From assembly GCA_005787345.1 (NCBI GenBank), contig SYBH01000008.1:33201-97200 (forward strand): DNA of 64,000 nucleotides, written 5' to 3'. The number at the start of each line of letters is the position of its first letter. Position 1 is the stretch's first letter. Below the pieces are notes generated by a model, which was not told the DNA's origin, ran no database searches, and saw only the letters and a program-made list of their open reading frames with translations. The stretch comes from Actinomycetota bacterium (GTDB lineage: Bacteria > Actinomycetota > Acidimicrobiia > Acidimicrobiales > Acidimicrobilacustridaceae). Both the position numbers and the translations under genes were made by a program. Shown here piece by piece: positions 25,009-64,000 of this stretch.

Positions 25009-25100
25009 CGCTTCGGCTGGCGCTAGGGCAACTGTTCGCTGCGACACGCGGCGGGTTTGCAGGTTCGCTCGGCTTTTCCAAGTCTGATGGAAGATGAAAC

Positions 25101-26036: not shown

Positions 26037-26037
26037 A

Positions 26038-26316: not shown

Positions 26317-26557
26317 TGGGGGCCTCCTTCGCCGGCAAAAGAACGCCGATCTGGTGTTGTCGATCGTTGTAGTCACGCTGTGACGGTGATGCAGGCAGCG
26401 ACTCATTGGGGAGTACAGACACGCCTGAAACCGCAATTGACGCTACCGGTTGGCGGGCTCTGCGCTGTGCACCCTTGACGGGTCATAGGCCACATTGATC
26501 GAAATCTATTGAAAAGTGGTGGCTAAGGTGCCTTCATCGCTGTGCTCTAGAGGGGGA

Positions 26558-27364
26558 ATGATGTCGTTCGTACTGGTAAACAAGCCCATTCCATCGGTCA
26601 CCGTCATCACGTTGAATCGGCCTGAGCGTATGAACGCCATGGCATTCGACGTGATGTTGCCGTTACGTGAGCAGCTGGAACAGGTTGCCCATGACAACGA
26701 CACTCGAGCAGTCATCATCACTGGTGCTGGTGAGGGTTTTTGCTCGGGAGCTGACCAGAAGGTTTCTGGAACGATTCCGCATATTGAAGGATTGACTCCC
26801 ACTGTGATTGCTCAACGAGCGGGAAAGTTGCTCGACGACATCATTCTGGGGATCCAAGACATGCCTCAACCCGTGATCGCCGCGATCAATGGGGCGGCAA
26901 TCGGAGGCGGTCTCTGTCTCGCCGCAGCCTGTGATATTCGTGTCGCGTCGCCCGAAGCGTATTTCCGGGCTGCTGGTATTAACAACGGTCTCACTGCAAC
27001 CGAACTTGGTTTGAGTTTCATCCTCCCGCGGATCATTGGAGCCGGACGGTCAAGCGAACTGATGCTTACAGGACGAGACATGAGAGTCGACGAAGCAGAG
27101 CGCGCTGGGCTTGTCTCCAGAGTTGTTCCTCGCTCGGAACTTCTCACCACCGCAATCGAGATTGCGGAGCAAATCGCTGGTTTGAGTCGGATTGGAATAG
27201 AGCTCACAAAGAAGATGATTCTTGGTGGACTTGAGTCAACGAGTTTTCGATCGCATATGCGCAATGAGATGACGGCACAGTTATACGTACGTCTGACGAC
27301 AAAGAACTGGGATGAATCAGTCGCTGCCCGGGCCGAAGGTCGAAAACCAGTCTTTCGCGATTGA
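26558..27364 (+). CDS. Enoyl-CoA hydratase/isomerase family
   Basis: VITGAGEGFCSGAD, AAINGAAIGGGLCLAAACDIRVAS; start after AGAGGGGGA. Confidence 0.92.
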   Translation: MMSFVLVNKPIPSVTVITLNRPERMNAMAFDVMLPLREQLEQVAHDNDTRAVIITGAGEGFCSGADQKVSGTIPHIEGLTPTVIAQRAGKLLDDIILGIQDMPQPVIAAINGAAIGGGLCLAAACDIRVASPEAYFRAAGINNGLTATELGLSFILPRIIGAGRSSELMLTGRDMRVDEAERAGLVSRVVPRSELLTTAIEIAEQIAGLSRIGIELTKKMILGGLESTSFRSHMRNEMTAQLYVRLTTKNWDESVAARAEGRKPVFRD

Positions 27365-46520: not shown

Positions 46521-47579
46521 TCACACCCGCTCATCGAGGATCATTCGGAGGCAATCGGATGCAGGATTATCCCGCCAAATCAAGCTGTCTGACGGGAGAA
46601 GCCCGCGCTGATCAAGTCGATTCATCACACGCACGACGATGACGCAGTAGCGGGCTGCCGCGAACAATTCATGGGCTGCGGTGTCAATCGGGTCACGGCC
46701 GGCGTGTTTGAAGTACATCTCGCGTTGCACGGTGCGGTTGGGGTCGCCGGGGAGGCGATCGATGCCCGCCAATTCGTGCATGGTCCGGTCGAACATCAGC
46801 CACCAGCCGAGATCGAATTCCGGGGGACCGATACAGGCCGCTTCGAAGTCGGTGAGACACGCCACTTGTGAGCCCTGCCAAATAATGTTGCCTGGGCGTG
46901 GGTCTCCCCAACACAAGCCGATCGACGTATCGGAAGGGAGCTCGTGTTCGATAATCGACCACGCATTTTCAAGGAGCGGATGCGATCTCCCGCGCAACTC
47001 TGACTCGCCAAAATCCTTCCAAAGATGGAGGAGGTGTTTTGAGCCCGGGGTCACGCCATTTGGGGTGAGCCAGTCCAACCCAAGAATTGAGGGGTCGAGC
47101 TTATGGATACGCGTCATATCCAAAAGGCCATTGCTGATGAGTTTGGTCCGCTCCGCCGGAGTGAGTTCGGTAAAGAAGCCTTCAACGCTGTAGGGCGGAC
47201 TCTCTAGAGGGACGACTCCGTCAACGTGGTGCATGACAAAGAACGGTGTACCTAGGACTGCTGGGTCGCTTTCGTAGCCGACAAGGGCGGCAACGGGTAG
47301 AGGGGAGTTTCGACCGATGCTGTCCATGATTCGGAACTGAATCTCGATTTCGGGCATCGGAAGATCAGACTGTGCCGGATAAACGGCGGGTTCGGGTGTT
47401 TCGAGTCGCACCACAAACCGCTGCTTGCCAAAAGAAGACGATTCGGCGGTGAGGAGGATCGTCTCGGCCGAGAATCCGCCGGAGGGACGACCATCAATCT
47501 CGATGTGGAGTCCCGATGTTCCGGTTTTTGATGCAATCCAGCTTCCGAGCGCTTCGGTGTCCAGCACGGTTTCAGCCAT
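46521..47579 (-). CDS. Phosphotransferase (aminoglycoside phosphotransferase-like kinase) family protein
   Basis: GLCWGDPRPGNIIWQGSQVACLTDFEAACIGPPEFDLGW. Confidence 0.9.
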   Translation of the reverse strand: MAETVLDTEALGSWIASKTGTSGLHIEIDGRPSGGFSAETILLTAESSSFGKQRFVVRLETPEPAVYPAQSDLPMPEIEIQFRIMDSIGRNSPLPVAALVGYESDPAVLGTPFFVMHHVDGVVPLESPPYSVEGFFTELTPAERTKLISNGLLDMTRIHKLDPSILGLDWLTPNGVTPGSKHLLHLWKDFGESELRGRSHPLLENAWSIIEHELPSDTSIGLCWGDPRPGNIIWQGSQVACLTDFEAACIGPPEFDLGWWLMFDRTMHELAGIDRLPGDPNRTVQREMYFKHAGRDPIDTAAHELFAAARYCVIVVRVMNRLDQRGLLPSDSLIWRDNPASDCLRMILDERV

Positions 47580-47668
47580 AGTTCCCCCTTTGGGACGAAG
47601 GTAGCAGCGGCTCCGCTCTCACGAAGTCGTCCATCTACACTCTGAATAGTTCAAACTTTGGGGGTCTC

Positions 47669-48859
47669 ATGACTGATCTGGTCGACAATCCGATGTTGCT
47701 TCCTGACCCCGAACCAGCAGAGGTTCGCTACACCATCATTTCTGTCGATGACCATCTCGTAGAGCCTCCCGAGATGTTCGAGGGTCGGTTGCCATCGAGG
47801 TTTCAGAGTCGAGCACCAAAGGTCGTGACAAACGAGCACGGTCACGAGGTGTGGGAATTCGAAGGTCAGCGATTCACGCAGGTCGGTATGAACGCCGTCG
47901 CTGGTCGAAGTAAGAGCATGAAGAATCTGGAGCCAACCAAATTCAGTGACATGCGAAAAGGGTGTTGGGACATCAATGAACGCGTGCGCGACATGGATCT
48001 AAATGGTGTCTGGGCGTCGATGAACTTTCCTTCCATGATTACCGGATTCTGCGGCCGTGTGTTCGCACAAATCGACGACCTTGATCTTGGCTATGCCACA
48101 ACCCAAGCGTGGAATGACTGGTTGTATGAAGAGTGGTGGCAACCGGCGACGGATCGAATCATCCCTCTTGGCCTTACATTCCTCGCTGACCCGGAAAAAG
48201 GTGCAGCGGAGATTCGACGTAACGCCGCTCGCGGTTTCGTTGCTGTGACTCTTCCTGAGCGACCCCAGAACATCGGCTTCCCGTCGTTGTTTTCCGGTTA
48301 CTGGGATCCAATTGTTGAAGCCTGTGCAGAAACCGACACGGTTATTGCTCTCCATGTGGGTTCCTCGGGCGGCTACCCATCACCCGCAGATGCACCTGCA
48401 CTTCAGTTGGGCGCAACGATGTTCGGTCAACTCTCACTGGCGGCATGCGCCGAATGGTTGTGGTCCGGTTACCCGTTGAAGTATCCAAACCTGAAGATCA
48501 CGATGTCCGAGGGCGGCATCGGCTGGGTCGCGATGCTGCTTGATCGGCTCGACAACATCATTGATCGAAGTGGCTACGGACTGGGTTGGGAAACGCGTCC
48601 CGCCGATGTTCTTCAGCGCAACTTCTGGTTCTGCACAATCGATGACCCATCGACGATCACGACCCGTCATCGCATCGGGGTAGAGAACATCATGTTCGAG
48701 ACTGATTACCCGCATGGCGATGGAACCTGGCCTGACACGCAGCAGGTAGTCGCCGACACTTACGGTGATCTTCCTACTGATGAATTGAGGGCGATTCTTT
48801 GCGAAAATGCTGCAGGGGTTTTCCGCCACCCATTGCCGAATGAGGTGTTGCCTCGTTAA
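47669..48859 (+). CDS. Amidohydrolase family (COG2159-like)
   Basis: ISVDDHLVEPPEMFEGRLP, ETDYPHGDGTWP; paralogue of 3012 and 53024. Confidence 0.9.
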   Translation: MTDLVDNPMLLPDPEPAEVRYTIISVDDHLVEPPEMFEGRLPSRFQSRAPKVVTNEHGHEVWEFEGQRFTQVGMNAVAGRSKSMKNLEPTKFSDMRKGCWDINERVRDMDLNGVWASMNFPSMITGFCGRVFAQIDDLDLGYATTQAWNDWLYEEWWQPATDRIIPLGLTFLADPEKGAAEIRRNAARGFVAVTLPERPQNIGFPSLFSGYWDPIVEACAETDTVIALHVGSSGGYPSPADAPALQLGATMFGQLSLAACAEWLWSGYPLKYPNLKITMSEGGIGWVAMLLDRLDNIIDRSGYGLGWETRPADVLQRNFWFCTIDDPSTITTRHRIGVENIMFETDYPHGDGTWPDTQQVVADTYGDLPTDELRAILCENAAGVFRHPLPNEVLPR

Positions 48860-50502
48860 GACGTGGCTGCGATCGCCTTGTCGCGCAGCGCGTATTTCAG
48901 AACTTTGCCGCTGGCATTTAGGGGGAACTCTGCAACGAGGTAAACGTGGCGTGGAACTTTGTAATTGGCCATTGATTCACGGCTCCACTCGATGATGTCA
49001 TCGGCTGTCAGTGCAACATCTGGCTTGGCAATTACGAACGCAACACCGACCTCGCCCAGTCGAGTATCGGGTATTCCGAGAACAGCAACTTGGCTCACGC
49101 CGGGGTGAGTGAGAAGTGCATTCTCGATTTCGGCGGGATAGGCATTGAAACCACCGACGATGAACATGTCCTTCATCCGATCGGTAATGCGCAGGTTGCC
49201 GGCTTCGTCCATCACTCCGATGTCACCCGTATGTAGCCAACCCTCGCTATCAATTGCTTCAGCTGTTGCTTCAGGGTTTCCGATGAAACCCTTCATGACG
49301 TTGTAGCCACGAATCAGTATCTCGCCAGGTTCGCCCGCGGTGAGTGGTTGGCGGTTTTCATCGGCAACGATGACCTCGATATCAGGAATCGCTCGACCAG
49401 CAGTGTTCGCGATGATCTCTGGATCATCGGTGTGGCGGCACATCGTTGCGATACCCGTCGCTTCGGTGAGCCCATACCCGGTGACGATGGTTTTGAACGT
49501 CATTTCTGAGCGCATACGGTGAATCATCTCTACGGGAACTGTTGCAGCGCCGGTAACTGAGAGTCGAAGGCTCGAGAGGTCGAAGTTATGAAGTTCGGGA
49601 TGGTCGAGCATCGTTTGGTAAATGGTCGGTGGCCCGGGAAGCATGGTGATGCGCTCTTCCTCGACGCGTCGCATAACTGAAGGAACGTCGAAGATTGGGT
49701 GTGGAAGGTTGGTCGCGCCCATCAAGATGCAGGCGAGGATGCCAGACTTCAATCCGAAGCCATGAAAGAACGGATTGATGATGAGGTAGCGATCGCCTTT
49801 TGTGAGACCGACAACGGTTGACCAGCTCCAATATGCGCGCACACTCGCGCTGTGCGTCAGCATCGCTCCCTTAGGGAGGCCCGTCGTTCCCGAAGTGAAG
49901 AGGATGTCGCATAAGTCGTCAGGGGCTATTGCCTTCGATCGAACTACGGCCGATTCAGCGGGAACCTGGCTCGACATTTCGATGAATTCCGGCCACGAGA
50001 CGGTGTTAGGCCGCGACGGGCCTCGTAGTAAAACCACGTGCTCGAGTGACGGAACCGTGGAGCGATCGCCAAGAAGTTCGACGTAGTCGGTGCCCAAAAA
50101 GTCCGAGATCGTGAAGAGGAGTTTCACGCCAGCGTTTTCAAGAATATATGTCGCCTCTGAACGCTTGAAGCGTGTGTTTAGCGGAACGAGTACGGCTCCG
50201 CTTCTATGGATCGCGCATGCGGCGATTACCCACTCGGCAATGTTTTGAGCCCAGATCGCAACGCGATCGCCAGGTTTGATGTCTAGTGCGATCAGGGAAC
50301 GGGCGGCCTCATCGACATGCTCGAGAAGTTCGGAATAGTTCAACCGAAGATCTCCGTCGACGAGTGCTTCGAGATCGCCGTACATCACGACAGCGCGTTC
50401 GAGAGCGGCAGCAACGGTCGTCGGGAGCGTGATGCCGGTGGGCTTACTTGATTCGGATGGCAAAGAAGTCTCCAAGAACAGTGGCGAGGGGGTTCGCATC
50501 AT
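48856..50502 (-). CDS. AMP-binding acyl-CoA synthetase/ligase
   Basis: DILFTSGTTGLPKGAMLTHSA, GYGLTEATG, LHTGDIGVMDEAGNLRITDRMKDMFIVGGFNAYPAEIE; start at ATG 50502 or 50499. Confidence 0.94.
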   Translation of the reverse strand: MMRTPSPLFLETSLPSESSKPTGITLPTTVAAALERAVVMYGDLEALVDGDLRLNYSELLEHVDEAARSLIALDIKPGDRVAIWAQNIAEWVIAACAIHRSGAVLVPLNTRFKRSEATYILENAGVKLLFTISDFLGTDYVELLGDRSTVPSLEHVVLLRGPSRPNTVSWPEFIEMSSQVPAESAVVRSKAIAPDDLCDILFTSGTTGLPKGAMLTHSASVRAYWSWSTVVGLTKGDRYLIINPFFHGFGLKSGILACILMGATNLPHPIFDVPSVMRRVEEERITMLPGPPTIYQTMLDHPELHNFDLSSLRLSVTGAATVPVEMIHRMRSEMTFKTIVTGYGLTEATGIATMCRHTDDPEIIANTAGRAIPDIEVIVADENRQPLTAGEPGEILIRGYNVMKGFIGNPEATAEAIDSEGWLHTGDIGVMDEAGNLRITDRMKDMFIVGGFNAYPAEIENALLTHPGVSQVAVLGIPDTRLGEVGVAFVIAKPDVALTADDIIEWSRESMANYKVPRHVYLVAEFPLNASGKVLKYALRDKAIAATS

Positions 50503-50518
50503 TGAATCACGGTTCAAT
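50501..50518. promoter_or_regulatory. Candidate operator: palindrome ATTGAATCACGGTTCAAT in divergent acyl-CoA synthetase promoter region
   Basis: Matches YTGAAYNNNNRTTCAR as do 54388-54403 and 61220-61235. Confidence 0.5.
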
Positions 50519-50602
50519 GTGTAGATGTAAGATTCATCTCTATCTGCGGAGGGTGTTTCAAGCCATGGCGCATGCACCGTTGTCAAGGAAAAGGAACCAC
50601 AG

Positions 50603-52234
50603 ATGAGTTCAGATGTGTGGCGCACTGGATCACAGTCAACGATTCCAGAACTACTTATGCAACGCCTTGAGTCTGACCCGGACAGCCAGTACCTCGACGT
50701 CTGCGGCGATTCGGTCTCTGCGGCCGCGGTCTACGACGTCTGCGCTCGTTTGGCCACATCACTCTGTTCGATGGGTATCAATCCGGGCGATCGAGTAGCG
50801 ACTCTGATCGAAAACTCAATCGAAGCGGTCTATGCATGGTGGGGGATCATCCTTTCGGGGGGCATCGCCGTTCCCATCAATACTGCATATAAAGGGGAGT
50901 ATCTCCGTCACCAACTCGCGGATTCGGGTTCTCGGGTCATCATTGTGGCTGCGGAGTTTCTTGGACGACTTGAAGCTGTTGCACCATCGGTGAAATCTCT
51001 ACAGCACGTCGTGGTGATCGGGGAGACGCGCCCGAAGATCAAAAATACGTCAACCGCTCTTTGGACTGACCTTCTCCAATCAGATGCGACGCCGCCTCAA
51101 TTGAACACGAAGCCCTCCGACCTCGGAACGTTTATCTACACCGGGGGAACAACAGGCCTTTCCAAGGGCTGCATGTTGAGTCACAACTATCACGAAGCCC
51201 TCACGCGGCAGATCGGTATCTGTTGGGAGCGCACGTCCGACGACGTCGTCTGGACGCCATTGCCACTCTTTCACTTCAATGCGATCACCACAGCCGTAAT
51301 GGGCCCACTCGTGTTTGGAGGCCGTTCAGCGATTTACCGTCGTTTTTCCGTTTCGAACTTCTGGCCTGAGATGAATCGTGTGGGCGCAACAATCACATCG
51401 ACGCTTGGAACGATGGCGTACCTCTTGGCTCATGATGTCGATCGTCCCGAGATGCCGAGATCAGGTGCGCCCGAGGCCAATACGTCGCTGCGCCTACTCG
51501 GTGCTGCACCGATGCCGGTTGAAGTTGACGACATCATGAAGAATCGATTCGGACTCACCACGTTTAGTGCCGCCTACGGCGTAACCGAAGCAAGTCTTAT
51601 CTCGTGGCAGCCACCAGGTGGCTATAACAAGCCCAATGCGGCTGGTGTTATCAACGATGAGTATTTCGACGTTCGAATCTTTGATGACGAAGACAACGAA
51701 TTACCACGTGGTTCACGAGGTGAAATCGTGATTCGGCCGAAGCGGCCCGATGTGATGTTCACTGGTTATTGGGGTCGTCCAGACGTGACGGTCGAAACCA
51801 GTAGGAACTGGTGGTATCACACAGGAGACGTTGGCATTATCGACGATGACAACTTCTTGTTCTTCGTTGATCGCAAGGCCGACTATCTCAGACGGCGCGG
51901 CGAAAACATTGCCAGTTTCGAAGTTGAGTCAATCATCATGGGGCAGGGACAAATAGCCGACGTCGCCGTGCACGCTGTTCCAAGTCCGATGTCAGAAGAC
52001 GATCTGAAGATCACTGCAACATTGGTGGACGGAGCGAACCTTACTGAGGAAGAACTGTTTCTTTGGTGTGTTGAGCAGCTTCCATATTTCGCTTTGCCCC
52101 GTTACATCGAATTCCGTAAGGAACTTCCGCGGTCGCCAGTCGGTCGAGTGCTGAAGCGGGAACTGCGCCACGAGGGAGCCACTGCTGCGAGCTGGGACCT
52201 TGAAGATTCAGAAGTGAAGTTCGAAAAACGTTGA
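50603..52234 (+). CDS. AMP-binding acyl-CoA synthetase/ligase
   Basis: FIYTGGTTGLSKGCMLSHNY, AYGVTEASL, HTGDVGIIDDDNFLFFVDRKADYLRRRGENIAS. Confidence 0.94.
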   Translation: MSSDVWRTGSQSTIPELLMQRLESDPDSQYLDVCGDSVSAAAVYDVCARLATSLCSMGINPGDRVATLIENSIEAVYAWWGIILSGGIAVPINTAYKGEYLRHQLADSGSRVIIVAAEFLGRLEAVAPSVKSLQHVVVIGETRPKIKNTSTALWTDLLQSDATPPQLNTKPSDLGTFIYTGGTTGLSKGCMLSHNYHEALTRQIGICWERTSDDVVWTPLPLFHFNAITTAVMGPLVFGGRSAIYRRFSVSNFWPEMNRVGATITSTLGTMAYLLAHDVDRPEMPRSGAPEANTSLRLLGAAPMPVEVDDIMKNRFGLTTFSAAYGVTEASLISWQPPGGYNKPNAAGVINDEYFDVRIFDDEDNELPRGSRGEIVIRPKRPDVMFTGYWGRPDVTVETSRNWWYHTGDVGIIDDDNFLFFVDRKADYLRRRGENIASFEVESIIMGQGQIADVAVHAVPSPMSEDDLKITATLVDGANLTEEELFLWCVEQLPYFALPRYIEFRKELPRSPVGRVLKRELRHEGATAASWDLEDSEVKFEKR

Positions 52235-52235
52235 A

Positions 52236-53027
52236 CTAGTCGTTTGTCCGGTTCGCAAGTTGTTCACGAAGGTTGGCAACTCGCTCGGTAATCCACGGCT
52301 GTTCCATCGACCACTGCTGCTCAACTAACTCAATCTGTGCAGCCTGTTCGTGGTCGAGTCCTACCGTGGCATCGAGGGTGTGTTTGGCACGTTGCATTGC
52401 TTCCGGTGGTCGGGAGGCGGCTCGCTGAGCAAACCTGAGTGCAAGACGGTGGGCTTCGTCGGCTGGAAGGCAGCGCCAGGCCAAGCCAAACTCGGCAGCT
52501 TCGGCCCCTGTGAGCCGATCGCCAAGAAGCGAAAGGGCGACGGCGCCTTGTCGTCCTATCCGCAGAGCGAGGTTTCGGAGTTGGCCGCCGCCAGGGTGGA
52601 CACCGAGATCCAAAAGACGAGGATCGAATGTGGCTTCGGCGGTACAAAGCAAAACGTCGCATGCCAGCACGAGATTGATGCCAGCTCCGATGACAGGACC
52701 ATCTACAACGGCAATCGTTGGCACCGGTGCACTGATGAGGGCATTCGCACCGCGAGCGATGTCGTTGAGTGTTGCTCGAGGCGAAACAAGATCATCAAGG
52801 TCTCCGCCGGAACAGAACACGGGGGGAGTAGCAGCGAGAATGATTGCCCGAACGCCCAGCGAAAGGGCCTCGTTTACAGCTGCCTCTAGATCAAGCGAAA
52901 GCTCGATACGTAGAGCGTTGCGTCGTTTGGCATCGGCCAAAGTGATCCGACCTATAGGACCATCGAAAACCTCAAGGGAGACCAGGGGATGATCGGCTGG
53001 TCTGGAGATTTGATTGAACGTACTCAC
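52236..53027 (-). CDS. Enoyl-CoA hydratase/isomerase family
   Basis: ATPPVFCSGGDLDDL, AVVDGPVIGAGINLVLACDVLLCT. Confidence 0.92.
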   Translation of the reverse strand: MSTFNQISRPADHPLVSLEVFDGPIGRITLADAKRRNALRIELSLDLEAAVNEALSLGVRAIILAATPPVFCSGGDLDDLVSPRATLNDIARGANALISAPVPTIAVVDGPVIGAGINLVLACDVLLCTAEATFDPRLLDLGVHPGGGQLRNLALRIGRQGAVALSLLGDRLTGAEAAEFGLAWRCLPADEAHRLALRFAQRAASRPPEAMQRAKHTLDATVGLDHEQAAQIELVEQQWSMEQPWITERVANLREQLANRTND

Positions 53028-54298
53028 GCTGTAGGAGCGAGCTTGCCGACCTCAATGCCGACATGCTTTTCGCGACGACCAGTGTCGAAGGCACGTTCAC
53101 TGACATCATGACCAGCGGACTTCGCTCGTAATGCTTTGGCAGTTGCTTCGGTTTTCGGAATGTGAACGAAGGGGTCGAAGCTGTACCACCGCATCGCGTT
53201 TTCGTGAGTGATCTTATTGATCTCGTGATCTGGCAGATCTCTCGCCACCTCGGCAAACTCTTCGCCAGCATGGGGCCAGGAAGAATCGGAATGTGGATAG
53301 TCGCATTCCCATGCGATGTTGTCGATGCCTACGTCGTGGCGGAGCTTGATGCCGATTGGGTCGGCAATAAAACAGGTGAGAAAGTGCTCACGGAACACCT
53401 CGCTGGGGGTCTTCTTCCCAAAATCCTGACCTGTCCAAAGATGGTGCATGTCATAGGTGCGATCGAGGCGGTCGAGGAAGTAAGGGATCCAACCGATGCC
53501 ACCTTCAGAAAGGGCGATCTTGATGTTCGGAAACTTCTTGAGGACCCGTGACCAAATGAGATCGGCAGCAACGGCGCAAATATTCATTGGCTGCAAGGTC
53601 ATCATCACATCGATCGGAGCATCGGGAGAAGTGATTGCCAACTTGCCCGATGAGCCGAGATGAATAGAGAGAACGGTGTTGGTATCGCAAAGTGCTTGCC
53701 AGAACGGATCCCAGTACTCGTCATGAAGACTTGGGTATCCCAATGTGTATGGGTTCTCGGTGAAGGTCACCGAGTGGACACCCTTCGCTGAAAGTCGGCG
53801 AACTTCTTCTCCAGCGAGTTGTGCGTCCCAGAGGATTGGGAGACCCATTGGGATGAAACGACCCGGAGCGGCGGCGCACCACTCGTCGACGTGCCAATCG
53901 TTGTAGGCGCGAACGACGTCGAGGGCGAGGTCTTTGTCATCGCATGCGGCGAAGAGTCGTCCGCTAAACCCCGGGAACGAAGGGAAATTCATCGATGACA
54001 AGAGACCGCCACCGTTCATGTCCTTCACGCGTTCATTCACATCCCAACATCCCGGACGAATCTCGTCGAACGACGTTGGCTCGATTCCGTATTCCTCTTT
54101 GGGTCGGCCCGCTACAGCGTTAAGCCCGATATTCGGAATGATGGAACCTTCGAACATCCAGACATCGTCGCCCTTGTCGTTTCGCTCAATCTTCGGGAAT
54201 CGGCCTTTCCATTTGGCCGGGGTGTGATTGTCGAACATTGAAGGAGGCTCAACTAAATGGTCGTCGACACTCACGAGAATTAGGTCGTCACTGTTCAC
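53024..54298 (-). CDS. Amidohydrolase family (COG2159-like)
   Basis: VSVDDHLVEPPSMFDNHTP, ECDYPHSDSSWP; GTG start; ATGA overlap with downstream ECH. Confidence 0.9.
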   Translation of the reverse strand: MNSDDLILVSVDDHLVEPPSMFDNHTPAKWKGRFPKIERNDKGDDVWMFEGSIIPNIGLNAVAGRPKEEYGIEPTSFDEIRPGCWDVNERVKDMNGGGLLSSMNFPSFPGFSGRLFAACDDKDLALDVVRAYNDWHVDEWCAAAPGRFIPMGLPILWDAQLAGEEVRRLSAKGVHSVTFTENPYTLGYPSLHDEYWDPFWQALCDTNTVLSIHLGSSGKLAITSPDAPIDVMMTLQPMNICAVAADLIWSRVLKKFPNIKIALSEGGIGWIPYFLDRLDRTYDMHHLWTGQDFGKKTPSEVFREHFLTCFIADPIGIKLRHDVGIDNIAWECDYPHSDSSWPHAGEEFAEVARDLPDHEINKITHENAMRWYSFDPFVHIPKTEATAKALRAKSAGHDVSERAFDTGRREKHVGIEVGKLAPTA

Positions 54299-54387: not shown

Positions 54388-54403
54388 TTGAACTATAGTT
54401 CAA
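54388..54403. promoter_or_regulatory. Candidate operator: perfect 16-bp palindrome TTGAACTATAGTTCAA
   Basis: Perfect inverted repeat in the 158-bp divergent intergenic region; contains TATAGT that could be a -10. Confidence 0.6.
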
Positions 54404-54456: not shown

Positions 54457-55905
54457 GTGCCAAAAAAGAGGAACGATTCAAAGAAGGAAGAATCGAAGAG
54501 GAATGCGAAGACAAAGGCGGTTCGCACGAACCTCCACGGAGGCGTCGTCGATGCTGCCGCGTCGGATAGCGGCGAACTCCACTTCGCCGAGCGGATGTTC
54601 GCGCCGCCGTTCGATCACGGGATCGCTCAGCCAGACAGAGCTGTCACCAACGTCAAACACGGCACCCGCGCCCACCTCGAAGGGGGTGTCGGCGACTCCA
54701 ACGAGCAGTATTGGTGGCAAGGCGGTGGACCAGCCACCGATGTCGCCGTGCAGAACATCACGATCTATCCGCCGACTCGTGGACAAAAGACTCAGGGCGA
54801 CCCGTTTGAGCCAATTAAAATTGGCATTCTCATCGATATGGATCTCAACCAGTTGCTCGCAGACTGGATCGATCCGACGATTTTAGCGATCGAAGATGCG
54901 ATGAACGAAGGGGTCTGGCGTCGCAGCCCTGTGCAACTTGTGGTTGCAGATGCTCGAGGCCTCCCGCGGGAGAATTACCGCAAGTTGATTAAAGGCTACG
55001 AGTGGCTCGTCGACGAAGGTTGCGTCGTTGTCCTCGGCCCGATGATCTCGGACAACTGTCTTTTACTTCAGGACACCGCCAATCGCCTCGGCGTACCTTG
55101 CATTGGCTGGACTGGTGCGCACAAGTTCGCTTCGGAGTATTGCTTCACTGTCGCCAATGGCGATGTCGCCACTGAGGGCGTTATGTGTGCGCAGTGGTTG
55201 CACGCTCATGGTCATGACAAAGTCGGACTCTTTTGGGAAGCCGGTTCATCGGGTCGCGACTATGCGGACTATTTCCGCGATGCTGCGCTGAACCTGGGTA
55301 TGACGATCATTCGAGAGGTGAAGCTGGAACCCAATCCTGTCGGGTTGAAGGAAGACCTCGAGAGTATGCGTGCGCTTGGCGCGGAAGGTCTCTATTACGG
55401 CGGATACGGCTATGCAACATTCCATTTTGCCGAGGCGTTGAAGAGCATGAGCTGGGACCCAGCACGAGTCATGGGCACGGCATTCATGTTCTATTCAAAT
55501 TCTAATGCGTGGGCCGAGGGCCTCGAAGGCTGGCACGGCGTCGACCAATTGGGCGAAGACGGCGCCAACCCCAACTACAACGCCATGATCGAACGTTTTG
55601 TGAATCGGTTTGGTCGAAAGACAGGCAACGTCGTTGTTGCCCTTGCCTACGACACAGCACGCGCCGCAATTCATGGCATTGCGAATGCAGCAATTCCGAC
55701 ACCAAAGGATGTCAAGGAGGGTCTTGAACGAATTCGCTGGATGCCTTCAACCAACGGTGGCCCGAGTTGCTACGTGCAGTTTGGACCCTACGACCACAAG
55801 GGTTACAAGGGCGACTTCCTGACGATTCGTGAACTTCGCGGTGGGGAACTGCGGTTTGACGGTTACCACCGTCCTGAATGGCCATCGAACTTGTCGGGCC
55901 ATTGA
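54457..55905 (+). CDS. Branched-chain amino-acid/amide ABC-type substrate-binding protein homologue (PBP type I fold) lacking a signal peptide
   Basis: IKIGILIDMDLNQ, VVLGPMISDNCLLLQDTANRLGVPCIGWTGA, KVGLFWEAGSSGRDYADYFRDAA; Lys-rich hydrophilic N-terminus. Confidence 0.82.
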   Translation: MPKKRNDSKKEESKRNAKTKAVRTNLHGGVVDAAASDSGELHFAERMFAPPFDHGIAQPDRAVTNVKHGTRAHLEGGVGDSNEQYWWQGGGPATDVAVQNITIYPPTRGQKTQGDPFEPIKIGILIDMDLNQLLADWIDPTILAIEDAMNEGVWRRSPVQLVVADARGLPRENYRKLIKGYEWLVDEGCVVVLGPMISDNCLLLQDTANRLGVPCIGWTGAHKFASEYCFTVANGDVATEGVMCAQWLHAHGHDKVGLFWEAGSSGRDYADYFRDAALNLGMTIIREVKLEPNPVGLKEDLESMRALGAEGLYYGGYGYATFHFAEALKSMSWDPARVMGTAFMFYSNSNAWAEGLEGWHGVDQLGEDGANPNYNAMIERFVNRFGRKTGNVVVALAYDTARAAIHGIANAAIPTPKDVKEGLERIRWMPSTNGGPSCYVQFGPYDHKGYKGDFLTIRELRGGELRFDGYHRPEWPSNLSGH

Positions 55906-56540
55906 TGACAGTAACGAGAGCAGTGAATCCAAAAGAAGAGCGACGTCAACTCCATCAGGAGCTCAGTCGCACACAACTTCTCGATGCCGCCGAGGAGATC
56001 TTCGGCCAAAAGGGATTTCACGAGACCACGCTGAAGGAAATCGCTGACCGAGCCGACTTCTCTGTCGGATCGGTGTACTCATTCTTTGAAAATAAGGACG
56101 ACCTCTACGTCAACGTATGGTTGCGGCGTGGTGCCGAGTTTCTCCCAGGCTTCGAGCAGGCCGTTGGCAGCGCATCAGATGGTCTCGATGCGATCGAAAA
56201 AATTGTGGACTTCGAAGTTTCGTTCCTGCGTTCCCGCCCGTCGTTCTCGAGTCTCTATTTGCGCTCAACGGCTTCACTTGTGCCAACTTCGGATGAAGCG
56301 GCGTCTGAACGAGTGTTGGAGAATGCGGAACTTGTGCTGAAGATGCAGGCTGAAGTGATCCAACAGGGTCAGTTAGAAGGACTCGTGCGCCATGGTGATC
56401 CAGCAGCACTTTCTCGATTGCTCTCTTCGATGGTGCAAGCGTTTCAGTCCGTCGACCACCAAAATAGCTCTGGACACCGGCCCTCCTTCACCCTTGGAGA
56501 GTTTCAACACATTGTGCGATCTGCATTTGCAGCGGCGTAG
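55905..56540 (+). CDS. TetR/AcrR family transcriptional regulator
   Basis: TQLLDAAEEIFGQKGFHETTLKEIADRADFSVGSVYSFFENKDDLYVNVW HTH; TGATG junction with preceding gene. Confidence 0.94.
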   Translation: MTVTRAVNPKEERRQLHQELSRTQLLDAAEEIFGQKGFHETTLKEIADRADFSVGSVYSFFENKDDLYVNVWLRRGAEFLPGFEQAVGSASDGLDAIEKIVDFEVSFLRSRPSFSSLYLRSTASLVPTSDEAASERVLENAELVLKMQAEVIQQGQLEGLVRHGDPAALSRLLSSMVQAFQSVDHQNSSGHRPSFTLGEFQHIVRSAFAAA

Positions 56541-56577
56541 TCGACGACCAATTCAACTTACGTAGTGGGGGATTGAG

Positions 56578-57333
56578 ATGGAAGATGCAATTAGCGGAAA
56601 GTCAGTACTCGTTGTCGGGGCTTCGGCAGGAATCGGTCGTGAATCAGCAGCAGCTTTCGCTCGCGCTGGTGCCCGAGTGATGGCAGTTGGTCGACGTGAG
56701 GAAAAATTGCGTGAACTGGCTGACGACGTGGAACTCGAGTGGTGTGCTGCGGACATCACTCACCCGGGTGAGCCACAACGATTGGTCAGCGAGACAGTAC
56801 GTGTCTTCGGGGGAATAGACATCCTCCTCAACGTCGCTGCGGCTTCTCCGATGGTCGCGATTGTCGATATTGCAACGGACGACTTTCTTAGTGTTTTTGC
56901 GAGCAATGTTGTTGGTCCTTCCGAAGTCTGTAAGGCCGCCCTGCCCCATCTCAATGAGAATGCCTTCGTCGGATTCGTTTCATCCGAGACTGTCGGCCGA
57001 CCCAGACATGGGCTGGTCCCGTACGGGGTTTCTAAAGCGGCGCTCGAAGAATTAGTAAACGGTTGGCGGGTAGAACACCCGAATATTCGTTTCTCGACAA
57101 TTCGTGTGGGCGCCACAATAGGAACAGATTTCGGACGGGACTTCGACGGAGAGCTCATCGGAAGATTTCTTGATGAATGGATTCGCGGCGGACACCTCTC
57201 TGCGGAAATGATGAATCCCTTATCAGTTGGTGTGGAGATGGCGGAACTGGTTGCTGTTGCCTATCTACAGCCAACAGTTGGTCTCACGGATTTCTCACTA
57301 CGCCCCCCAGGTCCCCTCGCAAGCTTGGGATAG
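56578..57333 (+). CDS. SDR family oxidoreductase
   Basis: SVLVVGASAGIGRESAAAFARAGA, YGVSKAALEEL. Confidence 0.92.
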   Translation: MEDAISGKSVLVVGASAGIGRESAAAFARAGARVMAVGRREEKLRELADDVELEWCAADITHPGEPQRLVSETVRVFGGIDILLNVAAASPMVAIVDIATDDFLSVFASNVVGPSEVCKAALPHLNENAFVGFVSSETVGRPRHGLVPYGVSKAALEELVNGWRVEHPNIRFSTIRVGATIGTDFGRDFDGELIGRFLDEWIRGGHLSAEMMNPLSVGVEMAELVAVAYLQPTVGLTDFSLRPPGPLASLG

Positions 57334-57377
57334 TCCATTTCTCCTGTTGTTCTTTCTCTTCCGACTAGAGGACTCAC

Positions 57378-58157
57378 ATGATGACAACCGATCCATCCGA
57401 ACGCACCGTTCTTATTTCAGGCGGTGCATCTGGACTTGGAGAAGTAACCGCCTTGTGGTTCCTCGGACTCGGCTATCCAGTAGTCGTCCTCGATCTCGAT
57501 GCCGAAAAGTGCGAAGCGATGACAGAGCATCTTGGTGATCGCGGGGCGGTCGTTTGTGGAAACGTTCTCGATGATGCTGATGTGCAGCGTGCGATCGATG
57601 CGGCGCGAACATTTGGGGAACTGCGGTGGGTGATTGCATGTGCTGGTGGCGGCGAGGTGGGAGGCCGCATTGTTGGCAAGGGCGGCGTTCCGCACGATAT
57701 GGGAATCTTTCAACGAACACTTGAACTGAATGTCACCGGTTCGTTCAACACATTAAGGCTGGCGGCCGCTGCTATGTCAGAGAATGATCCCGATCCCGAT
57801 GGCGAACGTGGTGCCGCACTTCTTGTCACCTCCGGTGCTGGTTTCGAGGGTCAGATCGGGCAAATTGCTTACGGTTCAGCGAAGTCAGCTCTTATTGGCA
57901 TGACGTTGATTGCCGCGCGCGATCTGTCCTCAGTTGGAATCCGAGTAAACGCAATTGCGCCTGGAGTCATGAACACCAGCGCGTGGGAGCAAGGCCCTCC
58001 CGAATTGAAAGCTGCGCTTGAGTCGACCGTTCCGTTCCCTAAGAGGCTCGGTGAACCTGAAGAATTCGCTCGGTTGGCTGAACACCTCCTTGCGAACCGC
58101 TACATGAACGGACACGTCGCTCGACTTGATGGTGCTCTTCGATTCGCACCCAAGTAA
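57378..58157 (+). CDS. SDR family oxidoreductase
   Basis: VLISGGASGLGEVTA, YGSAKSALIGMTL; 3-hydroxyacyl-CoA dehydrogenase type 2-like arrangement. Confidence 0.92.
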   Translation: MMTTDPSERTVLISGGASGLGEVTALWFLGLGYPVVVLDLDAEKCEAMTEHLGDRGAVVCGNVLDDADVQRAIDAARTFGELRWVIACAGGGEVGGRIVGKGGVPHDMGIFQRTLELNVTGSFNTLRLAAAAMSENDPDPDGERGAALLVTSGAGFEGQIGQIAYGSAKSALIGMTLIAARDLSSVGIRVNAIAPGVMNTSAWEQGPPELKAALESTVPFPKRLGEPEEFARLAEHLLANRYMNGHVARLDGALRFAPK

Positions 58158-58172
58158 ACGAGCAACGAATGC

Positions 58173-59147
58173 TTAGCGAGTGGCGTAAAGGTCGGCCACA
58201 ACCTCTGCAGCATCATCGATTGAACCGAATTGTGTTTCAAGAATCCAGGCCCGTTTCAGAAAGAGATGGGCATCGACTTCCCAAGTGAACCCCATGCCTC
58301 CGTGCACCTGCACACAAGTCTTTGCGTTTTCAGTTGCGGCCCGTGCGGACGTGAGTCGGGCGCCAGCAACTGCTCTGTCGATAGATCCAACCTCGGGCTC
58401 GTCTACCGTCACGCCCGCTGCCCACACCGACGATCGAGCAACTTCGGTTCGAATCCAAGAATCAGCTAGGAGATGTTTTAGCCCCTGGAAAGAGCCGATT
58501 GGACGGCCGAATTGCTCACGCCCTTTTGCGTACTCGACCGCAAGTGTTGTGCTTCCGGAGGAGTTTCCCGAGAGTTGAGCTGAGGACAAAAGCGATCCGC
58601 GTTGGCGCCAACTTTTCGCGAGTTCAGGGCCACCAATTTTGTCGGCTTTTGGGAGATTCGTAAGAATCGTGACTGGGGTTGTGGGGTCAGTCGGGTGGGC
58701 CACATCTGTCCCCAAGGCGTCTTCACAATTCAAAAGGCCGACTCCTGCATCGTCGACTATCAAAAGCACATCGGATGAGCGGAAGTTCTCAACCGCGAGG
58801 GGACCGTCGGCACCGACGTCGATGATGCACGGAACCACTGAACCTTCAATCACTCCATCGATGACTCCGGATGCGAGGGTGGCAGCAACGAGTGGACCGG
58901 GAACAAGCGCTGCACCAAGAGCTTCGTGGACGAGAACAGCGTCAATAAAGTTGAGTCCCACGCCACCACGGTCTTCGGGTACAGCGATTCCGAATGTACC
59001 GAGGGCGGCGAGTTCCGCCCAGAGTGATCGATCAAACCCCTCGGGTTCACCGAATGACCGAACGGTATCGATTGCGAATCGATGAGCGGCAAACCCCGTA
59101 ATCATTTCGACAAGTGACGCTTGGTCGTCTGTTGGTTGAAGATCCAT
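58173..59147 (-). CDS. Acyl-CoA dehydrogenase family (short subunit-like, 324 aa)
   Basis: GIAVPEDRGGVGLNFIDAVLVHEALGAALVPGPLV, FGRPIGSFQGLKHLLAD, QVHGGMGFTWEVDAHLFLKRA. Confidence 0.92.
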   Translation of the reverse strand: MDLQPTDDQASLVEMITGFAAHRFAIDTVRSFGEPEGFDRSLWAELAALGTFGIAVPEDRGGVGLNFIDAVLVHEALGAALVPGPLVAATLASGVIDGVIEGSVVPCIIDVGADGPLAVENFRSSDVLLIVDDAGVGLLNCEDALGTDVAHPTDPTTPVTILTNLPKADKIGGPELAKSWRQRGSLLSSAQLSGNSSGSTTLAVEYAKGREQFGRPIGSFQGLKHLLADSWIRTEVARSSVWAAGVTVDEPEVGSIDRAVAGARLTSARAATENAKTCVQVHGGMGFTWEVDAHLFLKRAWILETQFGSIDDAAEVVADLYATR

Positions 59148-59149
59148 GA

Positions 59150-60337
59150 TCAGCGCTCCCTGGGAAGTCCGAGCACGCGCTCGGCGATGATGTTCTGCTG
59201 GATTTGGGTGGTCCCTCCGCCCAATGAAATTGCGAAAGCATGCAACTTGCTGTGCACGAGTTCTCCAGTCGGTTGACCGCCAAGATCGTCCAGTGAGAGC
59301 GATGCTCTATCAAGCACTCGAAGAGCAAGGTCGCCGAGGCGATGTTGGGTTGTAGCAAACGCCACCTTGAATCCAGACCCAGAACCCATGACTAAGCCAC
59401 CTCGTGCACCTTGTGAAACGTTTCGCTTGGTGAACGCCCACAATGCATCGAGATCGGCGCCAATGATGCCGACCTCGCGTCGGATGCTGTCGTCGTTCCA
59501 AACCGTGCTGCCATTTCGCATTGTCGATTTCGCCATTTCGATGAGCTCTTGAAAGACGTTGGTTGTGTCGAGTAACTCGCCAACAAAGCCGGTACCCCGC
59601 TCGAAAGAGAGCGTCACGTTGGCAACTCGCCAGCCGTCGTTCTCGGCGCCGACGAGATTCGCAACAGGAACTCGAACCTCGTCGAGAAACAACTCTGCAA
59701 ACTCGCTCGACCCGTGAACCGTGACGAGAGGCCGGACATCGATACCGGGAAGATCCATGGGCATGATGAGCCAACTGATGCCCTTATGTTTCAGTTCGCT
59801 TGGGTCGGTTCGGACCAGCATTTCGCAATAGTCGGCAGCCACGGCGTGCGAGGTCCAAATCTTTTGTCCGTTTACGACGTAGTCATCGCCATCACGAAAG
59901 GCTCGGGTACGAAGAGACGCGAGGTCGCTACCCGATCCGGGCTCGGAAAACCCTTGGCACCAAACATGTTCGCCGGTGAGTATGCCGCGAAGGTGGTGGG
60001 ACTTCTGAGCGTCGGAACCTTCGGCGATGATCGTGGGGCCAGCATGCATCTGGCCAACAAATCCAACCCCGACGTCTGGCGCTTTCGCCGCAGCCGATTC
60101 CTCAAGAAAGATCAGGTGTTCAGTGGGTGTGGCGCCGCGTCCACCATGCTCGGCGGGCCAGTTGATGCCTGCATAGCCGGCTTCGAACAACATTCGCTGC
60201 CACTGAGCATCGTAGGAACGTCGACCTGGCCAATCGTCCGGTAAAGGCGGTGGCGGCATCGAGGCAACTGCGCCGCGAAGCCAGGCGCGAACTTCGGAGC
60301 GGAAACTGGAGTCGCTTTCGGAATCACGTAAATGCAT
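59150..60337 (-). CDS. Acyl-CoA dehydrogenase
   Basis: WCQGFSEPGSGSDLASL, GQKIWTSHAVAADYCEMLVRTD, GGGTTQIQQNIIAERVLGLP; start at ATG 60337. Confidence 0.94.
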   Translation of the reverse strand: MHLRDSESDSSFRSEVRAWLRGAVASMPPPPLPDDWPGRRSYDAQWQRMLFEAGYAGINWPAEHGGRGATPTEHLIFLEESAAAKAPDVGVGFVGQMHAGPTIIAEGSDAQKSHHLRGILTGEHVWCQGFSEPGSGSDLASLRTRAFRDGDDYVVNGQKIWTSHAVAADYCEMLVRTDPSELKHKGISWLIMPMDLPGIDVRPLVTVHGSSEFAELFLDEVRVPVANLVGAENDGWRVANVTLSFERGTGFVGELLDTTNVFQELIEMAKSTMRNGSTVWNDDSIRREVGIIGADLDALWAFTKRNVSQGARGGLVMGSGSGFKVAFATTQHRLGDLALRVLDRASLSLDDLGGQPTGELVHSKLHAFAISLGGGTTQIQQNIIAERVLGLPRER

Positions 60338-60374
60338 CACAAGCCTCGTTGTGTCGGTGTGGGGCGAACCCGAA

Positions 60375-61115
60375 CTATTGCGGTTCGTTCCATTCAATGG
60401 TTCGGTCGGAACGTTCGGGTTGACGCCCGATTTTTAGGGGGGCCAGGGGAGCGTCGCACATTAGGAATCGTTCGTAGTCCTCGGCCGCCCAGAGGACATC
60501 GCGCCACAGCCGAAGACTTGAGTCGGAATCTCGAGCCTTCTCAACTTCGGCCCACTGCTGCCATTCTGGGATCGCCCAAATCACGATGCACTCATCGTCG
60601 CGGCGCATAGAGGTTTTGAGGGCTCCGACAAGTTCCCAACCAAACGGCTGATGAGCACTCACGGCGATGTCGCGGACTTTTGACAAAAATGTCTCGGCTC
60701 CACCCGGTTCGACTCGGATTGTGTCGTGGGCGTAGGCCTTGCCAGAGACTCCTGCGGCGCAAAGCTCCTCGATAGTCCGGGTCCATGGAGCGGGTATGAG
60801 CACACGGTCGTAGCCCCCGGAGCGAAAGTTCGCGGCCTCGTTCCACCAGGCTTCGAGTTTGGCATCCTGCAACGTAGGACGGCCGAGCTCATGGCCAAGG
60901 GCGGTAGCCAGTCCATCGAGACCATCTTCCTCCCACATGTTGACGACCCGAGGCCAGCGGTCGGTTGTGCCGACTACTCCCCACACGCCGTAACAAAGTT
61001 GGCCGCGATCGTCTCGAGCCATCGGACACCAGTTGGCGGTCATGTGGTGCATGTAGTTCGCTCGGTTGGCGCCAATAATGTCGATGAACTCGTGCGTGTA
61101 GACCTTGGTATTCAC
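60375..61115 (-). CDS. Hypothetical protein, NIPSNAP-like/dimeric alpha-beta barrel repeats
   Basis: GVVGTTDRWPRVVNMWEEDGLDGLA...IVIWAIPEWQQWAEVEKARDSD pattern; GTG start with GGGGGAACT upstream. Confidence 0.6.
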   Translation of the reverse strand: MNTKVYTHEFIDIIGANRANYMHHMTANWCPMARDDRGQLCYGVWGVVGTTDRWPRVVNMWEEDGLDGLATALGHELGRPTLQDAKLEAWWNEAANFRSGGYDRVLIPAPWTRTIEELCAAGVSGKAYAHDTIRVEPGGAETFLSKVRDIAVSAHQPFGWELVGALKTSMRRDDECIVIWAIPEWQQWAEVEKARDSDSSLRLWRDVLWAAEDYERFLMCDAPLAPLKIGRQPERSDRTIEWNEPQ

Positions 61116-61201: not shown

Positions 61202-61235
61202 GATTCAGAGAACGAGTTTCTGAATCCTGATTCAG
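61202..61235. promoter_or_regulatory. Candidate operator: three GATTCAG/CTGAATC half-sites, including palindrome CTGAATCCTGATTCAG (61220-61235)
   Basis: Direct reading of divergent intergenic region 61116-61263; same YTGAAY-N4-RTTCAR layout as two other sites. Confidence 0.55.
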
Positions 61236-61263
61236 TTTGCTGAGCGGGAACTAGGGTAGCGGG

Positions 61264-62076
61264 ATGAGCGAGGGGTATGCGTCACGTCCTGGGCTGCAAT
61301 GTGCCTTTGCCGATGGAGTACTCAGACTCACCTTTGACCGGGCCGACAAGCGAAATGCCCTAACCGATGAGATCGTCGAAGGCGTGATTCAGGCGATTGT
61401 TGCCGCCGGTACTGACGAGGCGGTTCGAGCCGTCGTACTTTCGGGAATTGGCGATCATTTCTGTTCCGGTTTTGACATCGTCGCTCGCAATATTCCGAGC
61501 GGAGGTCGTCCTCGGGTGGGAAGCATCCAACGTCGGCTCCCGGGACAAGCGAATCGACTGATTGCGCTGATGCTTCGTACGCAAGTCCCGATTATTTGCG
61601 TAGTTCGCGGATGGTCTGCGGGTATTGGTCTTGCACTTGCACTTGCTGCTGATTTCACACTTGCCGCGGACGATGCAAAATTTTGGGCACCGTTCCTAGA
61701 TCGGGGTTTCACCCCCGATAGCGGAATCACCTGGATGCTCCCCCGACGCGTTGGTGATGTTCGAGCTCGCGAGATGCTCCTTTTGGGGCGAGTGCTCACC
61801 GGTGTTGAAGCTGCAGAGTGTTCATTGATTCATGGGTCGATTGCATCCCCAGACCTTGATGCCGCCGCTGAATCCCTCATCTCCCAGTTGGCGACGGCGC
61901 CCACGGTTTCGCTGGGGCTGACGAAGTCTCTGCTTGCTGCATCGTCGACTGCGACATTGGAATCACAACTTCAGGACGAGGCGTTCTCGCTGGAACTCTC
62001 GTCACGGAGCGATGACTTCAAAGAGGGACTCCTTGCGTTCAAAGAAAAACGCAACCCTGACTACAAGGGCCGCTGA
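61264..62076 (+). CDS. Enoyl-CoA hydratase/isomerase family
   Basis: LTFDRADKRNALTDEIV, GDHFCSGFDIV, GWSAGIGLALALAADFTLAADDAKF. Confidence 0.92.
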   Translation: MSEGYASRPGLQCAFADGVLRLTFDRADKRNALTDEIVEGVIQAIVAAGTDEAVRAVVLSGIGDHFCSGFDIVARNIPSGGRPRVGSIQRRLPGQANRLIALMLRTQVPIICVVRGWSAGIGLALALAADFTLAADDAKFWAPFLDRGFTPDSGITWMLPRRVGDVRAREMLLLGRVLTGVEAAECSLIHGSIASPDLDAAAESLISQLATAPTVSLGLTKSLLAASSTATLESQLQDEAFSLELSSRSDDFKEGLLAFKEKRNPDYKGR

Positions 62077-62077
62077 T

Positions 62078-63406
62078 GTGAAAGAGATGCCGAGTACAGC
62101 CTTGATTGATGTTCCGGATCTTGCCATCGCGCCTGGAAGCGACCTCAATGCGGCGGTTTCTGCGGTGCGAGATTGGATCAACTCGAACGTTCCCCGAGAT
62201 TGGCGTGACGCTGCGGATCGAGGTGGCGCTGCAGAGATACGTAAAGTCCGGAAGTTCTCAGACTACGAAGCCTGGTACCCAACGTTCGCTCGTTCTGGGT
62301 TAGCGGTTGCGACATGGCCTATTGCGTATGGCGGTCTTGGCCTTTCGTCAACGATTGCTCGCGCTATCGAAGCCGAACTCGCCCCATTCAATTTGGGTCG
62401 ACTCAACCCACTCGGACTCAATTTGGCGGCACCTGCATTGTTTGCTCACGGTACCGAGGAACAACGGTTGCGGTTTCTTCCGCCGATGGTTCGAAACGAA
62501 GAAGTTTGGTGTCAGCTCTTTAGTGAGCCAGGGGCTGGTTCTGATCTTGCGTCACTTGCGACTCGGGCCGAGCGTGACGGCGACGAATGGGTGCTGACCG
62601 GACAGAAAGTCTGGAGTACTTGGGCGCACCTTTCTGATTTCGGCGTTCTTCTTGCTCGTACCGATCCCGACCAACCGAAGAGGCAAGGCATTACGTATTT
62701 CCTCGTTGATCTACGTCAGCCCGGCGTGGAAGTGCGGTCATTGAGGCACATCACCGGCGAAATTGACTTCAATGAAACCTTTCTTGACGAGGTTCGTGTG
62801 CCCGATTTCAATCGGGTGGGAGCAATCGGAGATGGTTGGAATGTCGCCAACTCGACGCTGTCCGGAGAACGCCAGATGGTGTCAGGTTCCGGTTCAGGCG
62901 GCGTTGACCGCATAGGTGGTTCCGGCGCCGAATCACTCATTGCTCTTGCGAAGTCCAACGACGCTGCCAGTCGGGAAAACGGATGGTGCGATCCACTCGT
63001 ACGACAGGCGATCATGAAGGTTCTCAGCGAGGAATGGATTCGGGGCTGGACAAATCGACGAGTGCGGGCTGGCCTCAAGGCTGGCCGTGCGCCAGGCCCG
63101 GAGAGTTCTATTGGCAAAGTCCACCAAGGTTCATTGAATCAGCGCATTCAGTTGCTTGCAACTGACTTACTGGGAAGCGGCGCTCTTGCTTGGGACGCCG
63201 ATCAATCAGATGTCGACGACGTGGCGGCAAGGTACGCACTCACGCTCCCTCGTGAGGTCAAGGGAATGCTTCGAAGTCGAGCGAACACAATCGAAGGCGG
63301 CACAACCGAAGTGAATAAGAACATCGTTGGCGAGCGAGTTCTTGGCCTGCCGCGAGAAGCTGATCCTTGGAGTGGCGTTCCATGGCGAGATGTCCCGCGG
63401 AGTTGA
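62078..63406 (+). CDS. Acyl-CoA dehydrogenase
   Basis: WCQLFSEPGAGSDLASL, GQKVWSTWAHLSDFGVLLARTD, EGGTTEVNKNIVGERVLGLP; GTG 62078 or ATG 62087 start, ORF opens 61934. Confidence 0.94.
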   Translation: MKEMPSTALIDVPDLAIAPGSDLNAAVSAVRDWINSNVPRDWRDAADRGGAAEIRKVRKFSDYEAWYPTFARSGLAVATWPIAYGGLGLSSTIARAIEAELAPFNLGRLNPLGLNLAAPALFAHGTEEQRLRFLPPMVRNEEVWCQLFSEPGAGSDLASLATRAERDGDEWVLTGQKVWSTWAHLSDFGVLLARTDPDQPKRQGITYFLVDLRQPGVEVRSLRHITGEIDFNETFLDEVRVPDFNRVGAIGDGWNVANSTLSGERQMVSGSGSGGVDRIGGSGAESLIALAKSNDAASRENGWCDPLVRQAIMKVLSEEWIRGWTNRRVRAGLKAGRAPGPESSIGKVHQGSLNQRIQLLATDLLGSGALAWDADQSDVDDVAARYALTLPREVKGMLRSRANTIEGGTTEVNKNIVGERVLGLPREADPWSGVPWRDVPRS

Positions 63407-63409
63407 TGG

Positions 63410-64000
63410 ATGTACTCCACACTCGTAGTTGAACGACAGGGTCATGTTGCTTGGCTGATTTTCGACCGTCCTGATGTGGGGAACGCCATGGACTCAGTGA
63501 TGCTCACTGAAATTGAGCAAGCGTGGCAGGAGCTTGAGTCCGACCCTGAGGTGAGGGTAATCATTAACACCGGCAATGGGCGACTGTTCCAAACGGGTCT
63601 TGATGTGGTGCAACTCGCCAAAGACCGCGAAGCATTGAGAGAGCAGTCTCGCCGAACTCGCGACGCAGAACTTCGCTTGACCAGTTGGCATAACTCTGTC
63701 ACCAAGCCAGTGATTTGCGCAGTGAATGGCTTATGCGCAGGAGGTGGTCTGCACTTTGTCGCCGATGCAGACATCGTGATTGCTTCATCGGATGCTGCAT
63801 TTCTTGACCCGCATGTCTCTATCGGCCAAGTCACTTCCTATGAGGCGATTGGGCTTGCTCGGAAGATGCCGTTTGAGGCGGTGATGCGTATGGCGTTGAT
63901 GGGTCGCCATGAGCGGATGTCGGCGCAGCGGGCCTATGAACTCGGGATGATTAGTGAAGTTGTTGATCCTCCAGAGCGTTTGCGTGAGGTTGCCCAGGAG
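63410..64000 (+). CDS. Enoyl-CoA hydratase/isomerase family (truncated by window end)
   Basis: Manual translation MYSTLVVERQGHVAWLIFDRPDVGNAMDSVM...CAVNGLCAGGGLHFVADADIVIAS; open to base 64000. Confidence 0.88.
   Translation, partial: MYSTLVVERQGHVAWLIFDRPDVGNAMDSVMLTEIEQAWQELESDPEVRVIINTGNGRLFQTGLDVVQLAKDREALREQSRRTRDAELRLTSWHNSVTKPVICAVNGLCAGGGLHFVADADIVIASSDAAFLDPHVSIGQVTSYEAIGLARKMPFEAVMRMALMGRHERMSAQRAYELGMISEVVDPPERLREVAQE

Follow-up and report, generated by a model that had tools for sequence, protein, structure and literature searches.

A TetR-family regulator and its candidate operators at four divergent promoters of acyl-CoA genes in uncultured Acidimicrobiia

Described TetR systems and the palindrome of this locus

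Most members of the TetR family are repressors. KstR and KstR2, which serve cholesterol catabolism in mycobacteria, have the motifs TNNAACNNGTTNNA and ANCAAGNNCTTGNT, and in the FadR site of Bacillus subtilis TGAAT and ATTCA are 8 bp apart. BkaR, a mycobacterial regulator of branched-chain keto-acid genes, has the motif GTTA(N)T(N4)A(N)TAAC (PMC3920632). RolR, the TetR-family regulator of resorcinol catabolism in Corynebacterium glutamicum, controls a catabolic operon and itself, and binds the repeat REP1, TGAAC-N4-GTTCA, in rolO (PMC9210681). The RolR operator is 29 bp long and includes a second repeat, TTCAT-N2-ATGAA; RolR occupies it as two dimers and, from this position downstream of the start site, serves as a roadblock (PMC9210681).

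The window, that is the whole 64-kb stretch of DNA analysed here, contains three palindromes of the form YTGAAY-N4-RTTCAR in divergent promoter regions: P1, TTGAATCACGGTTCAA, at 50502-50517 between two acyl-CoA synthetase genes; P2, TTGAACTATAGTTCAA, at 54388-54403 between an amidohydrolase gene and a binding protein-tetR operon; and P3, CTGAATCCTGATTCAG, at 61220-61235 between a NIPSNAP-like gene and an enoyl-CoA hydratase gene. All three are present exactly as the initial annotation had given them, and P2 is the sole perfect 16-bp palindrome of the window. The core of P2, TGAAC-TATA-GTTCA, has the half-site and the spacing of REP1, and the likeness to RolR extends to the proposed regulator, predicted here to be a TetR-family protein that controls a catabolic operon and itself. 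The two systems differ in that single sites are located on promoters here and the genes are of acyl-CoA metabolism. The second overlapping repeat, TTCAT-N2-ATGAA, is not visible in the P1-P3 sequences, and RolR structures were not among the matches listed for the TetR of the window.

Comparison with the acyl-CoA regulators gave a similar mixture of likeness and difference. The locus shares with KstR2 and KstR the TetR fold, an acyl-CoA regulon with several divergent promoters and a FadD3-like ligase, but their motifs have other spacing or half-sites. Neither of them fits, as the initial annotation had judged. Identity with KstR is rejected by the core, which here is AAC-N4-GTT and not AAC-N2-GTT, and by the family model (24.6 bits vs a cut-off of 280). 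BkaR resembles the regulator as proposed here in being an autoregulated TetR repressor of acyl-CoA genes with a conserved 16-bp palindrome, but its motif differs from TGAAY-N4-RTTCA and excludes identity. The acyl-CoA-responsive regulators FadR (Bacillus) and AibR (Myxococcus) have the same overall fold (3whb and 5k7z) and the FadR model gives a partial match, but the identity in structural alignment is 13-17%, and a regulator of the Bacillus FadR type is rejected by NF053878 (46.6 bits vs a cut-off of 200). No description of this regulon was found in the open-access literature searched for the motif with TetR. Of the 'undescribed regulon' of the initial annotation, the regulon can therefore be called new, whereas the operator is a known kind of TetR operator, with REP1 of RolR as precedent (PMC9210681).

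Pattern searches were employed to establish how rare the palindrome is. The window holds three matches to YTGAAYNNNNRTTCAR, all at P1-P3; dinucleotide shuffles of the window average 0.05, and none of 100 reached three. In the genome (2.29 Mb in 174 contigs, 82% complete) YTGAAY-N4-RTTCAR has 5 matches and the reversed control pattern has 0, and the promoter-located exact matches are only the three of the cluster. The remaining two, one within lepA (C8) and one spanning the stop codons of two convergent genes (C35), were dismissed as operators since they are coding. Allowing one mismatch brings the search near background (35 matches vs 30 for the control), and relaxing the outermost letter alone (TGAAYNNNNRTTCA) yields 7 matches. 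One-mismatch scans of the genomes G000 and G005 provided no additional shared site except TTGAAGAAGAGTTCAA, in which the TGAAY half is broken. Another candidate, TGAATCGAGGTTCA in three relatives, was dismissed as coding because it lies inside a conserved long ORF beginning MLDLLIKGGTVIDGTGRDRF.

It is very improbable that the sites are chance palindromes, or RNA hairpins, grouped after the fact. Such a grouping could arise, as 6-4-6 palindromes in the window are above the uniform expectation (38 vs 15.6) and the consensus was fitted post hoc to three sites; the weight rests on independent tests in other genomes and at other promoters. Nevertheless, it is not the symmetry alone but the sequence itself that is common to unlinked promoters and kept across species and genera, the shuffles fall short of three matches, and the P2 site, lying on a possible -10 element, would hardly be transcribed as a hairpin. 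This explanation appears already largely refuted by the cross-genome conservation and the tests on TetR homologues (see below).

Genes of the cluster and their proposed repression

The leftward gene at P1 (48856-50463, minus strand) encodes a FadD3-like acyl-CoA synthetase (NF005801, 724 bits, cut-off 657), and the rightward gene (50603-52234, plus strand) encodes a second acyl-CoA synthetase with a Pfam AMP-binding match. The initial annotation had the P1 site overlapping the start of the leftward synthetase. Judging from orthologues and from a GGAG that precedes it by about 6 nt, this start is near 50463, the GTG at 50625 being a mechanical ORF extension, so the site lies about 40 bp upstream of the start and the overlap is not upheld.

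At P2, the leftward operon (52236-54298, minus strand) consists of overlapping genes for an amidohydrolase (53024-54298, Pfam Amidohydro_2) and an enoyl-CoA hydratase-like protein (52236-53027, Pfam ECH_1). The rightward operon (54457-58157, plus strand), with short or absent gaps, encodes a Peripla_BP_6 binding protein, the TetR-family regulator (55905-56540) and two SDRs, as assigned by Pfam. The ATG of tetR overlaps the stop codon of the preceding gene, so P2 very probably drives tetR too. At P3, the leftward operon (58173-61115, minus strand) contains genes for a NIPSNAP-like protein and two acyl-CoA dehydrogenase subunits. The dehydrogenases have Pfam matches and the operon gives pimC/pimD-like and IpdE2-like NCBIfam scores below the cut-offs; the NIPSNAP-like protein has no Pfam match, and its name is that of the initial annotation. 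The rightward operon (61264-64000, plus strand) encodes an enoyl-CoA hydratase, an acyl-CoA dehydrogenase and another enoyl-CoA hydratase, assigned by Pfam, the last gene being cut by the contig end. The 14 genes under P1-P3, together with three at a fourth promoter, P4 (see below), make up 17 recognised genes.

An APH-family gene (46521) and an amidohydrolase gene (47669), together covering 46521-48859, adjoin the regulon and are syntenic in the genus relatives; the 47-64 kb cluster of the initial annotation includes this amidohydrolase, and no operator-like site was found between the two genes. Other catabolic-looking genes (SDRs, SMP-30/gluconolactonase, class II aldolase, DUF3237, enoyl-CoA hydratase) are present at 6376-8933, 15239-16779 and 24421-27364, and none of the ten proteins checked in these three regions is a regulator.

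The regulator matches the helix-turn-helix domain TetR_N (PF00440) with an E-value of 9.9e-16 and 57.7 bits against a cut-off of 24, and orthologues support the assignment. Its AlphaFold model is all-helical (pLDDT 87.8) and matches TetR structures, among them FadR (3whb), AibR (5k7z) and KstR2 (4w97), at 13-19% identity. The conserved palindrome lies in the promoter of its own operon and upstream of TetR homologues. With good confidence, based on these sequence comparisons, we take P1-P4 to be operators of this TetR, which would repress four divergent promoters including that of its own operon. The dimer would bind TGAAY-N4-RTTCA and thereby overlap or abut the core promoter of each divergent region. 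Binding at P1 would repress both acyl-CoA synthetases; at P2, the amidohydrolase-hydratase operon and the binding protein-tetR-SDR-SDR operon, and since tetR is inside the latter, this would amount to autoregulation; at P3, the NIPSNAP-like-dehydrogenase and the hydratase-dehydrogenase-hydratase operons; and at P4, an aldehyde dehydrogenase and an SDR-P450 operon. A pathway intermediate, most likely an acyl-CoA, as may reasonably be inferred by analogy, would free the promoters of TetR.

The positions of the sites relative to possible promoter elements bear on the sign of the regulation. The P2 site encloses TATAGT, as had been noticed initially, and it does so on both strands. In P1, TAAGAT (50528-50533), a possible -10 element, is 10 bp downstream of the site, and in P4 the site ends 3 bp before TAGTTT. 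The P3 site ends 16 bp before TAGGGT (61252-61257), which in turn ends 6 bp short of the hydratase start codon (ATG, 61264) and is kept in all P3 orthologues; this suggests that the rightward transcript may be leaderless with the site over its -35 region. A sigma-70 consensus scan found no promoter, and these elements were therefore inferred from TANNNT matches and conservation only. As the sites fall at possible -10 or -35 regions, all four could block RNA polymerase. Some proteins of the TetR family are activators, and this one might bind the same sites to activate, or both to activate and to repress; this is improbable, however, as a dimer covering possible -10, -35 or spacer sequences would block the polymerase. 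Repression therefore stays the preferred reading.

Conservation in the genus and a fourth, unlinked promoter

Within the genus, the sites recur at the corresponding promoters of up to 10 genomes, as would be expected of the shared operator that the initial annotation had proposed. In alignments of genus sequences, identity in the site against the remaining promoter was 0.97 vs 0.61 at P1 (8 sequences), 0.95 vs 0.53 at P2 (10 sequences), 0.84 vs 0.60 at P3 (7 sequences) and 1.00 vs 0.65 at P4. Ranked by conservation inside its own promoter, the site window is second at P1, P2 and P4; the P3 window comes only 30th among 135, as the sequence that follows P3 downstream is conserved as well. The spacer bases vary between promoters and are largely constant within each of them. 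Deviations include one mismatch at P3 in G002 and the absence of the P4 site in G013. Two genus genomes without the cluster have scattered TGAAY-N4-RTTCA matches (9 in G001 and 10 in G004), and none of the four promoter types is among the matches listed for them.

One of the two matches added by the relaxed pattern is the P4 site, GTGAATCTCGGTTCAA (TGAAT-N4-GTTCA), at G000:C101:3038-3051 (L016). It is located on another contig, in the divergent promoter between a gene for an Rv0768-like aldehyde dehydrogenase and an SDR gene, which in relatives is followed by a cytochrome P450 gene. After the P4 site, a stretch TAGTTTAC is invariant in nine relatives. The P4 SDR gene is present in 10 of 21 genomes (G000, G002, G005, G006, G007, G009, G013, G014, G018 and G020) and absent from the other 11, and the carriers of the cluster are exactly those ten, with the contigs of G006 and G020 ending before tetR. 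This co-occurrence, in counts from related and thus not independent genomes, links P4 with the pathway without recourse to the motif. The regulon that the initial annotation had confined to the cluster at 47-64 kb is thus supported as regards the three promoters there and has to be extended to a fourth on C101.

TetR homologues beyond the genus and the meaning of the regulon

Homologues were found with a profile of 16 TetRs. Outside the genus, homologues with 28-46% identity to the TetR of the window have the palindrome just upstream of their own gene, at a distance of 33-139 bp from the TetR match in L119, L123, L125, L129, L141 (two copies) and L143. A scan of 250 bp upstream added L151, for a total of seven distant homologues, Deltaproteobacteria included. 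Among TetR homologues 34-60% identical, the palindrome is within 250 bp upstream in 4 of 27 vs 0.0042 expected, and among more distant ones in 3 of 19 vs 0.026 expected. De novo searches upstream of the 34-60% identical TetRs placed TGAA-N6-TTCA first of 3,328 palindrome classes (4 vs 0.017), and in the more distant group ATGA-N8-TCAT came first, a palindrome in the same register but offset outwards by one base. With exact 5-mers, the de novo search in front of the TetRs was so sparse that the motif did not come first. TCGA-N11 and other palindromes that swamped the 1,700-bp upstream searches were set aside as probably codon-driven.

In the deltaproteobacterial homologues L141 (9949-9981) and L151 (1520-1592), of about 29% identity, the palindrome is present twice in front of the TetR gene.

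The orthologous amidohydrolase promoter was searched as well. A position weight matrix from the genus sites (18.7 bits) has its best or a high-ranking match there in most of the Acidimicrobiia and Actinomadura loci examined, and GAA-N6-TTC is present at this promoter in 10 of 13 loci outside the genus vs 0.23 expected. A TGAT-N4-ATCA palindrome at amidohydrolase promoters was rejected, as it probably stems from first codons included in the searched sequence. In same-family genomes with the closest gene order, P2 alone is recognisable, the P1 and P3 sites being unrecognisable. From these comparisons, the P2 operator looks like the core, to which P1, P3 and P4 would be additions in the genus. 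One same-family genome has two operator-like sites in overlapping register in the divergent hydratase/NIPSNAP-like promoter (L079:8230-8267), which suggests that the regulated promoters shift between lineages.

The identity of the regulator may be weighed against the same data. The sites could be operators of another dimeric regulator encoded elsewhere, with the TetR of the cluster controlling something else. Any regulator gained with the cluster would show the same co-occurrence, and several TetR homologues (L115, L116, L134, L135, L137 and L138) have no recognisable site nearby. Nevertheless, this is unlikely, as the palindrome immediately precedes the genes of distant homologues, which lie in other gene neighbourhoods and extend to the Deltaproteobacteria, and Pfam finds no regulator gene in the cluster besides tetR. 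The proposal of the initial annotation that the cluster is under a single dimeric regulator, with the TetR at 55905 as a plausible candidate, is thus supported computationally, the motif following TetR homologues into other genera.

Taken together, the four operators may, tentatively, outline a complete catabolic pathway, as yet undescribed, in aquatic Acidimicrobiia and actinobacteria related to them, with activation by P450 and aldehyde dehydrogenase, two CoA ligases, paired acyl-CoA dehydrogenases, hydratases, an amidohydrolase and an uptake protein. A TetR subfamily would govern this pathway, and the operator code of the subfamily, TGAAY-N4-RTTCA, would be old enough to be common to TetRs of other phyla. 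A recurrent acyl-CoA gene cluster of uncultured Acidimicrobiia thereby gains a proposed regulator, an operator and a gene list. The unlinked P450/aldehyde dehydrogenase locus is tied to the same pathway by independent evidence, which narrows the substrate options and makes guesses testable. Binding of TetR is open to in vitro checks that need no culture of the organism, and the operator offers a means of detecting the same pathway in metagenomes.
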